Virus record (IMG/VR): IMGVR_UViG_3300027983_000063
Coordinates: 1-32,869 of that record
Source: a virus
Length of the DNA: 32,869 bases
Direction: 5' to 3' (one strand)
This document shows, in pieces, positions 8,353 through 24,860 of this stretch; the stretch's first letter is position 1; each line of letters begins with the position of its first letter. The notes under the pieces were generated by a model that had not been told where the DNA came from, ran no database searches, and saw only the letters and a list, made by a program, of their open reading frames with translations. Both the position numbers and the translations under genes were made by a program.

Positions 8353-8366
8353 ATTATAGTGCAATA

Positions 8367-8528
8367 TTACAGTGTTACGGGTTCTTGTGCAGATTCCAGA
8401 ACAACAATTGCAATCTCGCTATTAACCACATCAACATTCACTTTGCCGCCGAATTTTAACTCGCCAAACAAAATATGCTTAGACAATGGCTTCTTAATCT
8501 TCTCTTCGAACAGTCGCTCAAGTGGTCG
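8367..8528 (-). pseudogene. Detached clpA 3' end
   Basis: On the minus strand 53 codons read as a ClpA C-terminus: RPLERLFEEKIKKPLSKHIL, FGELKFGGKVNVDVV, ending in TAA. They align codon for codon with the last part of the intact clpA (RPLERLAETEIKKPLSKEIL, FGKLRNGG) at 9482-9649, but the two differ at about half the positions after that. There is no start codon, and the HNH gene lies between. This looks like the original end of clpA, cut off when a segment with the endonuclease and a different clpA tail arrived. Similarity begins exactly at the CGACCACT codons. Confidence 0.85.
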
Positions 8529-8534
8529 TATTAT

Positions 8535-8542
8535 GATAAATA
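8535..8542 (+). promoter_or_regulatory. T4-type late promoter box GATAAATA for the HNH endonuclease
   Basis: GATAAATA lies 18 bases before the ATG at 8560, at the left boundary of the inserted segment. Confidence 0.6.
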
Positions 8543-8559
8543 ACAATAGAGACTTAATT

Positions 8560-9498
8560 ATGAATTACCAATTACATTATGATACCCTTATTAATAGGGC
8601 TAAACTTAGGATTTTACCATTAGATCAATATACTGAATCTCATCATATTAGGCCAACATGTATCGGTGGTAGAAATATTAAAGCTAATTTGGTTAAACTA
8701 ACACCCGAGGAACATTTTGTAGCACATCAACTGCTAGTTAAGTTATATCCAGTCAATCCACTTATATTAAAAGCATGTCATATAATGACAAATAGTAACA
8801 GTAAAGTTAAACGAAATAATAAATTATACGGCTGGATAAGAAAGAGGTTAAGTATTCTATCGTCTAAAAGAGTAAACGTCGATGATACAATATACACATC
8901 GATGTTAGAGACTAGTAGGGTGTTCAATATTTCCGCGGATGTTGTCAGGCATAGATGTAAATCAACAAAATTTCCAAACTGGAATTATGCTGATGGCCTT
9001 ATCATTAAGAAAATCGGAATAAGAGAAATAAATAAAATAAATTGCGATGGTATACTATTTCCATCTACCGTGCAAGCTGCCTTACATTTTAATATATCAA
9101 AAGATGCCGTCGGTCATAGATGTAAATCAACAAAATTTCCAAACTGGTTTATTATCGGAAAAGAAAAGACTGAAGAAACAAGAAATAAAAGACCGAATAA
9201 AGGTAAAATATTATGTGATGGTGTTATATTTGATGATATATACGAGGCAGCTAAATATTTTAACGTTTGCACTAATAGCATAAGTGCTAAATGTAACTCA
9301 CTATATCATGAGAACTGGAATTTTTTAAATTCCCCGATAATTAAAATCAAGAAAGTAAAGAAAATTCCAGTGTGTGATAGTATTGAATTTGCATCATTCT
9401 CTGATGCAGCAAAATATTTCGGAATTACATTACAGGGTGTACTATATAGATGTAAGACCGAAACATTTAAAGACTGGTATACTAAATATCTAAATTAA
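8560..9498 (+). CDS. HNH homing endonuclease with NUMOD-type repeats
   Basis: 312 residues from ATG 8560; the longer frame to 8359 runs backwards through the clpA remnant. The N-terminus holds an HNH nuclease: YTESHHIRPTCIGG, NLVKLTPEEHFVAHQLL. It is followed by four or five copies of a DNA-binding repeat of NUMOD1 type with the pattern F.s..eAa..fnis...v..RCkS..f.nW (RCKSTKFPNW occurs twice). Such free-standing enzymes cut an allele lacking them and copy themselves by repair. It reads toward clpA and its end overlaps the clpA end by 17 bases. The broken gene at 14073-14308 is a homologue. Its Lys/Asn/Ile-rich, A/T-rich codons differ from clpA. Confidence 0.93.
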   Translation: MNYQLHYDTLINRAKLRILPLDQYTESHHIRPTCIGGRNIKANLVKLTPEEHFVAHQLLVKLYPVNPLILKACHIMTNSNSKVKRNNKLYGWIRKRLSILSSKRVNVDDTIYTSMLETSRVFNISADVVRHRCKSTKFPNWNYADGLIIKKIGIREINKINCDGILFPSTVQAALHFNISKDAVGHRCKSTKFPNWFIIGKEKTEETRNKRPNKGKILCDGVIFDDIYEAAKYFNVCTNSISAKCNSLYHENWNFLNSPIIKIKKVKKIPVCDSIEFASFSDAAKYFGITLQGVLYRCKTETFKDWYTKYLN

Positions 9499-14385: not shown

Positions 14386-14393
14386 TATAAATA
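14386..14393 (+). promoter_or_regulatory. Perfect T4 late promoter box TATAAATA before phoH
   Basis: TATAAATA ends seven bases before the ATG at 14401. It faces away from the GATAAATA box at 14315-14322, giving a divergent pair of late promoters. Confidence 0.72.
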
Positions 14394-14400
14394 CGATTAC

Positions 14401-16287
14401 ATGATATCCTTTTATAGAGATACATTTCACAATATTAATCCTGTTCTTGGATTAGTTGTTCCACAATCTAAAATTCTTAATGGAGAAATAACCTTGAGTA
14501 AAAATCGTAAAATGGCAAAACTATCACCTAATTCTCGCACATCATACAAACCAACAGACGACCAACAGTCTACGGTTGTTAAGTTCGGAAATAGGAACTA
14601 TAAGAAAGTCGAGATGTTACCCAGAAATACAGCGCAGGAAGCTTACGTCGAGGCATTGCTCGATAAACGTATGGTGTTTGCAGTCGGGCCGGCCGGCACA
14701 GGAAAGGCCCAGCCATTAGATGCAAAGATTAAGATCCCCGACGGATGGGTAACAATGGGCAATATAGGCATTGGCGATGTAGTGTCTACGCCGTCCGGCG
14801 GTACAGCAAATGTTGTTGGTGTATTTCCGCAAGGAATGAAAGACATATATCGTATTACATTTTCCGATGGCAGAACTACCGAATGTTGTAAAGAACACTT
14901 GTGGGAGGTTTATTACAGAGATAATTGGGGCAATATATCCAAGGTCATGAGTTTAGGTGATATTATAGAAAAATCTAAGAAATTTAAAAAGAAATTTCAG
15001 ATTAGATTGCCGAAGCACGAAAACACTGCCGATGTTGACCTGCCTATTAATCCATATGTCCTAGGCTGTCTCCTGGGAGACGGATCTATGACTATTACAG
15101 GCAGGATAGAATTTTCGAGTGCAGACAAAGAAATCGTTAATCGACTTAATGAATCTGTACCTGACGGCACATTTAAATTTAAATCCAACTATGATTATAT
15201 ATTTGTGTCAGGAGGAAAAGGGTCTGGCCATACACCAGGGAAGTTCGGATCAGAATTAAGACAAAATATATTTAATCTTGGCCTGTTTGGAAAAAAATCT
15301 TTCGAAAAATTTATCCCATTAGCATATTTGAATTCTTCAGAATCTCAAAAAATTGAATTATTACGTGGATTGCTGGACACCGACGGATATGCTGATTCTA
15401 AAAATAACGGATTGTACTTTACATCTACCAGTAAAATACTTGCAGAACAAGTTCAGTACCTTGTAAGATCCATCGGCGGCACCGCAAAAATTTCATCCAA
15501 GGTCCCTACTTATACATATAAAGGAATTAAAAAATATGGCAGAATTGCATATGATGTAAAGATAGATCGTAAAGACAAAAAAAATCTAGTATCTTTGCAG
15601 AGGAAAAAAGACTGTTTATCTGACAACGGACAATACATAAAATTTAACACTATATCTATTAGTAAGATAGAATTGGCAGGATCTAAAGAAGCACAATGTA
15701 TTATGATTGATTCCGAAGATCATCTGTATATCACCGACGATTTTATAGTGACACACAATACACTGTTGGCTGTTCTTAGAGCAATTAAAGCATTAAGGGA
15801 ACATGAGATAACACGGATTATCATAACTCGCCCTGCTGTTAGCGTTGACGAAAAACATGGATTTTTGCCAGGAGATTTGAATGCTAAAATGGAACCATGG
15901 ACACGACCTATATTCGATGTGTTCGATGAATACTACGGTGTAGTGGAAACAAAGAAAATGCTAGAAGATGGAACAATTGAAATTGCCCCACTAGGCTTTA
16001 TGAGGGGTCGAACTTTTAAACATTCGTATGTGATTTTAGATGAGGCCCAGAATTGCACACCGTCACAAATGACTATGGTCCTAACTCGTTTAGGGGAAGG
16101 TAGTTCTATAGTAGTTACCGGTGACTTAAAACAACATGATAGAGGATTTGAAGAAAACGGATTAAAAGATTTCCTTAAAAGATTTCCTAAATCTGACAAC
16201 GACATAGCTGTATGTACATTTGAAAGATGTCATGTCGAAAGAGACCCACTTGTATCTAAGGTATTAGGCATTTACGGTCAGGATTAA
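14401..16287 (+). CDS. phoH: PhoH-like P-loop ATPase interrupted by an intein
   Basis: The spliced protein would be a PhoH-family ATPase of about 277 residues (628 minus 351). Walker A is GPAGTGK|T, split by the intein at residues 103-453. The rest follows: ITRPAVSVDEKHGFLPGDLN, the Walker B region SYVILDEAQNCTPSQM, sensor VVTGDLKQHD. PhoH is common in phages; its role is unsettled (RNA or phosphate-stress related). Start: ATG 14401 lies seven bases past a perfect late box, while TTG 14494 has GGAGA eight bases upstream and gives 246 residues before numbering the intein, closer to usual phage PhoH length; either may be right. With the intein in place the ATP site is broken, so activity needs splicing. 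It stands alone on the plus strand and ends in a strong terminator. Confidence 0.95.
   Translation: MISFYRDTFHNINPVLGLVVPQSKILNGEITLSKNRKMAKLSPNSRTSYKPTDDQQSTVVKFGNRNYKKVEMLPRNTAQEAYVEALLDKRMVFAVGPAGTGKAQPLDAKIKIPDGWVTMGNIGIGDVVSTPSGGTANVVGVFPQGMKDIYRITFSDGRTTECCKEHLWEVYYRDNWGNISKVMSLGDIIEKSKKFKKKFQIRLPKHENTADVDLPINPYVLGCLLGDGSMTITGRIEFSSADKEIVNRLNESVPDGTFKFKSNYDYIFVSGGKGSGHTPGKFGSELRQNIFNLGLFGKKSFEKFIPLAYLNSSESQKIELLRGLLDTDGYADSKNNGLYFTSTSKILAEQVQYLVRSIGGTAKISSKVPTYTYKGIKKYGRIAYDVKIDRKDKKNLVSLQRKKDCLSDNGQYIKFNTISISKIELAGSKEAQCIMIDSEDHLYITDDFIVTHNTLLAVLRAIKALREHEITRIIITRPAVSVDEKHGFLPGDLNAKMEPWTRPIFDVFDEYYGVVETKKMLEDGTIEIAPLGFMRGRTFKHSYVILDEAQNCTPSQMTMVLTRLGEGSSIVVTGDLKQHDRGFEENGLKDFLKRFPKSDNDIAVCTFERCHVERDPLVSKVLGIYGQD
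14707..15759 (+). other. Class 3-type intein with LAGLIDADG (DOD) endonuclease in the PhoH Walker A motif
   Basis: 351 residues from Ala1 (AQPLDAKIKIPDGW) to the terminal His350-Asn351, inserted between Lys and Thr of GPAGTGK|T. Residue 1 is Ala, not Cys or Ser. Block B is TTECCKEHLWEV with His64 and Trp66, block F is AQCIMIDSEDHLYITDD with Cys331, and block G is IVTHN with Thr349 before His-Asn. Trp at B:12, Cys at F:4 and Thr at G:5 are the WCT triplet that defines class 3 inteins, in which the block F cysteine starts splicing. The +1 residue is Thr, as allowed. Between the splicing blocks are both DOD endonuclease motifs, YVLGCLLGDGSM (about 117-128) and LLRGLLDTDGYAD (218-230), so homing ability looks intact. 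Confidence 0.93.
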
Positions 16288-23963: not shown

Positions 23964-24860
23964 TTAATTTCGAGTTCTAATAATAGTGTACTTGATTGTA
24001 AGTAACTTTCCTAGTAATTCTTTTTCATTATCTCTTGCAACACTTTCTGCAATGGTAGTAAGATTTGTTTTCCACGGATATGCTTTTTTATTCCCATCAG
24101 TGCTTGCCTCATCGATTGTGTAATGAAATGGTCCGTGGTATTCTAATATTTCAACAACCTTAGATTTGTTACCCCTGTAACCTAGTTCAAACACTACTAA
24201 ATCGTATAGTACCCATCTACCATTATGGTATATTCCCCATTCGTGTAACTCGCTCTCTGCATCGGCGTATGCACATTGTTCTGTTAAATACCCGTTTTCA
24301 TTGATATAATTTCTAATGTATAAGGTTGCCTCTCTACTTGAATTTGACTTAGTAAATCCTCCATTTGCAATTTTAGTAGCAACTATTTTAGCAGATATTT
24401 CCTTATTTTTTGACGGAACATCAACTCCATATCTTTTAATATTTGTGTTTCTTGTTCTTTCGCGAACTACTTTGGATTTATTAGGATTAGTTACTCCGTA
24501 ATTTTTCAAACACGTAGCTTCTTTTTTCTGCTTAATTGCTTGGTCCTTTGACGGATTATCAACGCCGTATACTTCAATGAATTTAGCCTTAATCTTGTTT
24601 TTTATTTGGTCCGAAGAGGCTGGATTCTTCGTTCCGTATTTTTCCAGATTTGTGTCTATTGCCTTGATCCTTCCGCATTTTGCACAACCTGATCCTCTTC
24701 TGTGGTCTCCGGCTCGCTGTTCGAATTCTCCGTGTGCTTTACATACTATAGTAAGTTTATTATCGTTGCCACTATACTCGGATTTACTATAATCGTAACT
24801 CTGAGCATTATCTTTTCGAGTCAAGGCTAGTTTTTCTAAATATTGTGCGGTAGTAATCAT
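23964..24860 (-). CDS. Putative homing endonuclease with zinc ribbon, NUMOD-type repeats and REase-fold end
   Basis: 298 residues. The N-terminal segment YDYSKSEYSGNDNKLTIVCK, AHGEFEQRAGDHRRGSGCAK, CG is a treble-clef-like zinc site common in phage mobile endonucleases. Then come repeats of the type N-x-x-K-Y-G-x-x-N-P-S-x-x-x-x-I-K-x-K (three copies: KYGTKNPASSDQIKNKIKAK, VYGVDNPSKDQAIKQKKEA, NYGVTNPNKSKVVRERTR, and a fourth RYGVDVPSK), a DNA-binding array. The C-terminal part, WVLYDLVVFELGY and KVVEILEYHGPFHY, fits a Vsr/REase-fold catalytic core with Asp and Glu. Cleavage specificity is unknown. The ribosome site is covered by a hairpin (see 24859-24913). Confidence 0.88.
   Translation of the reverse strand: MITTAQYLEKLALTRKDNAQSYDYSKSEYSGNDNKLTIVCKAHGEFEQRAGDHRRGSGCAKCGRIKAIDTNLEKYGTKNPASSDQIKNKIKAKFIEVYGVDNPSKDQAIKQKKEATCLKNYGVTNPNKSKVVRERTRNTNIKRYGVDVPSKNKEISAKIVATKIANGGFTKSNSSREATLYIRNYINENGYLTEQCAYADAESELHEWGIYHNGRWVLYDLVVFELGYRGNKSKVVEILEYHGPFHYTIDEASTDGNKKAYPWKTNLTTIAESVARDNEKELLGKLLTIKYTIIRTRN

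Follow-up and report, generated by a model that had tools for sequence, protein, structure and literature searches.

The phoH gene in the window (as we term the whole stretch of DNA analyzed, 32,869 nucleotides in length) is interrupted by an insertion that, on the evidence of sequence and structural modeling, is very probably a full-length mobile class 3 intein lodged in the Walker A motif of a phage PhoH ATPase.

Anatomy of the interrupted phoH gene

Translation of positions 14707-15759 reveals an in-frame insertion of 351 codons between the Lys and Thr of GPAGTGK/T (the slash marks the insertion point), starting with AQPLDAK and ending with FIVTHN, with GPAGTGK immediately before it and TLLAVLRA after it. 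When it is taken out, GPAGTGK is joined to TLLAVLRA, which is the sequence of empty relatives. A preliminary description of this DNA had placed an intein at precisely these coordinates and between these two Walker A residues; the translation bears this out exactly, with matching junctions and empty relatives that read GPAGTGKT, and the anatomy of the insertion is confirmed as first read. In Pfam searches with the ORF, the PhoH domain is recovered in the flanks (8e-65) and LAGLIDADG_3 inside the intein (4e-14). Hence, the extein is predicted to be a PhoH ATPase whose Walker A motif, GPAGTGKT, would be rebuilt upon splicing. The calculated products are a precursor of 597 aa and 67.0 kDa from TTG 14494 and a spliced PhoH of 246 aa and 27.8 kDa. 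The features of the locus are as follows:

14386..14393, + strand: T4-type late-promoter-like octamer TATAAATA, matching (T/C/G)ATAA(A/G)TA, a motif that 18 of 19 sequences, the window among them, have at the corresponding position upstream of phoH
14399..14493, + strand: phoH 5' leader, outside the protein, flanked by the conserved octamer and the invariant TTG
14484..14487, + strand: Shine-Dalgarno-like GGAG, which precedes the invariant TTG in the 19 aligned sequences
14494..14706, + strand: PhoH N-extein, 71 aa, with a TTG start invariant in 19 sequences, ending in the Walker A GPAGTGK
14707..15759, + strand: class 3-type intein, 351 aa, 39.2 kDa, delineated by translation, alignment to relatives and crystallized inteins, and an AlphaFold2 model
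14896..14904, + strand: block B His64-Leu65-Trp66 (B:10 to B:12), matching His65-x-Trp67 of 6bs8/6rix in the alignment; 90 of the 91 distinct relatives have the Trp
15007..15618, + strand: predicted LAGLIDADG homing endonuclease domain, approximately intein residues 101-304 (Pfam LAGLIDADG_3), with Asp125, Lys201, Asp224 and Asp226 kept
15697..15699, + strand: Cys331, predicted block F nucleophile (F:4), aligned with Cys118/Cys124 of 6bs8/6rix and present in all 91 relatives
15751..15759, + strand: Thr349-His350-Asn351 (block G:5 to G:7), invariant in the 91 relatives
15760..16287, + strand: PhoH C-extein, 175 aa, with a TAA stop; its +1 Thr completes the Walker A motif

The class 3 signature of the splicing domain

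Class 3 inteins are defined by a Trp at B:12, a Cys at F:4, a Thr at G:5 and a Ser or Thr at the +1 position (PMC5222942). The intein in the window has neither Cys nor Ser at its first position, which is Ala1, and displays His64, Trp66, Cys331, Thr349, His350 and Asn351, followed by Thr+1; thus, the complete signature is present. We took the solved DnaB inteins from M. smegmatis and from M. chimaera as the standard of comparison for class 3. When the PDB was searched with phmmer, both Msm DnaB1 (6bs8) and Mch DnaB1 (6rix) matched the intein over its N-terminal portion and again over the C-terminal block (QCIMIDSEDHLYITDDFIVTHN). The register agrees at H-x-W, C and THN, the C-terminal segments being low-scoring on their own. 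The preliminary description had read an Ala start and the full W-C-T signature from the sequence and had proposed an alignment to known class 3 inteins: both features are seen in the translation and the alignments, and in the comparison with 6bs8 and 6rix Trp66 falls on the B:12 Trp, Cys331 on the F:4 Cys and THN on THN. The Msm and Mch DnaB1 mini-inteins (6bs8, 6rix, 6riy) share the HINT fold and the W-C-T residues in register but, unlike the intein in the window, they have no endonuclease domain and reside in DnaB.

The same pattern is seen across an alignment of 91 distinct viral relatives, whose inteins are mostly situated in P-loops: the block B His is found in 91, the Trp in 90, the block F Cys in 91 and THN in 91, with the full W-C-T set in 90. 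Likewise, His64, Trp66, Cys331 and Thr349-His350-Asn351 are invariant in an alignment of 60 relatives. Position 1 varies among the 91 (Ala in 66), and the +1 residue is Thr in 74, Ser in 15 and Cys in two. A variable first position coupled to a constant block F Cys is what would be expected if the Cys, rather than residue 1, were the nucleophile. Beyond viruses, W-C-T is retained in all 38 relatives inspected from bacterial genomes, most of which lie in the P-loops of DnaB, ClpB-like and helicase exteins, in the form GK/AQPLD...THN/T (the extein names being drawn from motifs only). Taken together, the sequence, the match to class 3 inteins of known structure and a confident model support assigning the intein to class 3 and placing it within Walker A; from homology, we further infer that splicing would depend on Cys331.

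Fold, endonuclease domain and selective constraint

An AlphaFold2 model built from a 60-row alignment (pLDDT 94.6, pTM 0.93) predicts a HINT domain with a LAGLIDADG domain. In Foldseek searches with this model the best full-length matches are the intein-endonucleases TliVMA and PI-SceI, while the class 3 DnaB inteins, in their best chains, superpose on the splicing domain with deviations of 1.3-1.7 A across 69-83 columns. The two LAGLIDADG motifs, LGCLLGDG (119-126) and LLRGLLDTDG (218-227), both keep their acidic residues (GDG at 124-126 and DTDG at 224-227), and the block D Lys201 is retained. Thus, the earlier observation that both motifs are preserved stands, with the Pfam match and the PI-SceI fold match agreeing with it. 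Comparison of the window with two same-site inteins (contigs L045 and L003, see below) gave saturated pS values of 0.74-0.84, against pN values of 0.20 (splicing domain) and 0.22 (endonuclease domain). The low and similar pN against saturated pS suggests that both domains are functional, and the endonuclease domain is apparently intact.

Distribution of same-site inteins and empty alleles

Two viral contigs carry inteins that share with the window the Walker A insertion point, A1, H-L-W, C, THN/T and the LAGLIDADG domain. That of the IMG/VR contig L045 is 69.5% identical, with a C-extein of 77% identity and a phoH gene in the same clade as that of the window. That of L003, a 239-kb phage contig, is 69% identical (68% in one comparison), with a C-extein only 51% identical; here pN is 0.35 for the extein vs 0.21 for the intein. 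In the extein tree the window and L045 stand among 17 empty genes (17 of the 19 clade rows), and the nearest phoH to that of the window (L020, with a C-extein of 90% identity) is itself empty. Overall, the empty alleles identified are L020-L044. The tree further contains nine same-site class 3 PhoH inteins from viral contigs (L118, L126, L135, L136, L143, L146, L164, L176 and L179); Pfam confirmed the PhoH extein for seven of these and for L003. The junction sequence of L139 also resembles a same-site PhoH intein, and this contig was kept out of the tree with its extein broken off.

This patchy distribution suggests homing or lateral transfer, even as losses could also account for it. Lateral transfer is the best account because L003 combines a distant extein (51%) with a 69% identical intein and because the nearest gene, L020, is empty. 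Branches outside the main clade are long, and the tree does not fix the number of transfers.

PhoH proteins also have a second insertion site, GFLPG/T, which holds an intein of class 3 type in Salicola phage SCTP-2 and in L130, as well as the second intein of L010. The SCTP-2 example (gene 75; L101 1315-2922), which is annotated as a plain PhoH, is a mini-intein that has lost the endonuclease motifs and seemingly starts with Pro, with no Cys or Ser at residue 1. The PhoH-like gene of L010 (6001-8421 in this 320-kb phage contig) seemingly holds two class 3-type inteins, one at GYPGSGK/T and one at the GFLKG site.

Predicted splicing and homing, and alternative interpretations

We infer the splicing chemistry by analogy with the known class 3 mechanism, and the endonuclease activity and promoter use are likewise predictions. 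The phoH mRNA would probably arise from a T4-type late promoter and be translated from TTG 14494 into the 597-aa precursor. There, Cys331, aided by His64, Trp66 and Thr349, would attack the Lys-Ala1 bond and form a branched thioester, Thr+1 would then receive the N-extein, and Asn351 would cyclize with His350 assisting. The exteins would be joined as GPAGTGKT in the 246-aa PhoH, and the 39.2-kDa intein would be freed. Cleavage of empty phoH genes by the LAGLIDADG domain would fall around the AGTGK/T codons (near GGTACAGGTAAA/ACA) and lead to the intein being copied in; homing into phoH is the likely implication of the intact domain and the patchy distribution.

An Ala1 and a nucleophile at +1 would fit equally well the needs of a class 2 intein, in which Thr+1 attacks the N-terminal junction directly and Cys331 is dispensable. 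That route does not require Trp66, Cys331 or Thr349, which are nonetheless kept in essentially all relatives, and class 2 inteins lack the block F Cys and the W-C-T set that is complete here. Further, three class 3 inteins that were tested needed the block F Cys absolutely (PMC5222942), and we consider the class 2 route very improbable. We give scarcely any credence to the view that the intein has decayed, no longer splices and leaves PhoH inactive: nothing speaks directly for it beyond the existence of degraded class 3 inteins (going by the title of one report, the Arth_1007 intein is a pseudogene; PMC3196547), and it is at odds with the full set of intact catalytic residues, the lack of stops, the intact exteins, the equal constraint on both domains and the confident model.

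It has also to be considered whether, beyond being a mobile parasite, the intein is retained as a conditional switch of the PhoH ATPase, redox-responsive through Cys331. An interrupted Walker A as such cannot bind ATP, and the Msm DnaB1 class 3 intein is reported to sense oxidative stress (PMC6195587). However, an empty phoH is the rule among close relatives (17 of the 19 rows), which implies that such a switch is dispensable, and regulated splicing is not supported. We consider it rather unlikely that the intein holds back the PhoH ATPase during late infection by acting as a post-translational and perhaps redox-sensitive switch. A more modest proposal, which shares this low estimate, is that a single mobile lineage of class 3 inteins has landed repeatedly at the phoH Walker A site as it moved between distantly related large phages. 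The reading that we favor remains that of a mobile class 3 intein that splices through Cys331.

Relationship to previously described PhoH inteins

The preliminary description had called it unusual for a phage PhoH to carry a class 3 intein. This does not hold: about a dozen viral contigs (L003, L045 and the nine further contigs listed above) have same-site PhoH inteins, as does Vibrio phage 1.161.O, and class 3 inteins in the PhoH proteins of M. fortuitum (OBK00716) and M. xenopi (EID13626) were published in 2018 (PMC6195587). These last share with the window the W-C-T class and the PhoH extein but come from bacterial hosts, and are known here by publication rather than by sequence or site. 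The intein of the Vibrio phage (AUR91592.1 in MG592529) is also of class 3 with LAGLIDADG motifs and lies at the PhoH Walker A (GAAGSGK/T) with about 42% intein identity; its extein, unlike that of the window, is a PIN-PhoH (PhoH2-like) protein. In its record (L100 1769-4216), this PIN-PhoH ATPase with a Walker A class 3 intein is annotated only as a hedgehog/hint domain protein. An intein in the PhoH of a phage was reported as early as 2012 from Campylobacter phage IBB_35 (PMC3322345), but it is of the class 1 type, starts with Cys1 and is inserted at Walker B (VDE/C...N/C); given the Cys1 and the different site, we set it aside as a precedent. More generally, the P-loop Lys/Thr junction is a classic insertion site, and class 3 inteins are found among mycobacteriophages (PMC5050341). 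Moreover, the window matches PHROG 32482, a PhoH family of 589 positions, across the intein-extein junction.

Hence, the intein in the window is a textbook object of a well-known type that has already been published for PhoH, and it leaves the picture of the nature and whereabouts of class 3 inteins unchanged. What it adds is a further clean example of a class 3 intein, full in length and with an endonuclease that appears intact, along with a matched set of phoH alleles, some filled and others empty, whose origin in related phages makes them suitable material for testing homing and the block F mechanism.

The phoH start codon, leader and promoter-like element

The 19 phoH upstream regions that we aligned have a common layout, with the octamer followed by approximately 100 nt and then GGAG and TTG. 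TTG makes up 21% of the Leu codons in these phoH genes and yet occupies the start position in 19 of 19, which marks it as the start codon. The start of phoH is thus almost surely TTG 14494, in preference to the rejected alternatives TTG 14383 (the start of the ORF, upstream of TATAAATA) and ATG 14401; the upstream frame is broken in L034 and L041.

The gene had earlier been placed under a late promoter. The number of matches does not support this reading: the window has five copies of TATAAATA where 3.9 would be expected, a chance-level count that renders a single match insignificant and that we rejected as promoter evidence. What stands is the conserved position of the motif upstream of phoH, which makes a late promoter plausible. 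A search for T4 gp55 in the related contigs with the IBB_35 protein as query, run without a positive control, returned no match at E<=1.

In most relatives the leader (14399-14493 and its equivalents in L022-L045) could form three small hairpins (GTAT..ATAC, TCGATA..TATCGA and GGACA..TGTCC). Pairing is seen in 94% of cells, and two pairs are changed on both sides, which provides modest support. RNAalifold on a wider leader set recovered almost nothing, the leader of the window is itself divergent, and Rfam gave no match.

Phage context of the window

The window (1-32869) appears to be part of a large T4-related phage. A megablast search of its positions 1-25000 against known phages gave no match; at the protein level its clamp loader is nearest to those of the PA5oct group of Pseudomonas jumbo phages (48%), and its PhoH is 53% identical to that of the same group. 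A 62-kb contig (L002) is identical to the window over the 13 kb compared and, if collinear, reaches past 32869. The window also encodes two apparently free-standing homing endonucleases, at 8359-9498 (+) and 23964-24860 (-), corresponding to PHROG 655 and PHROG 3339.
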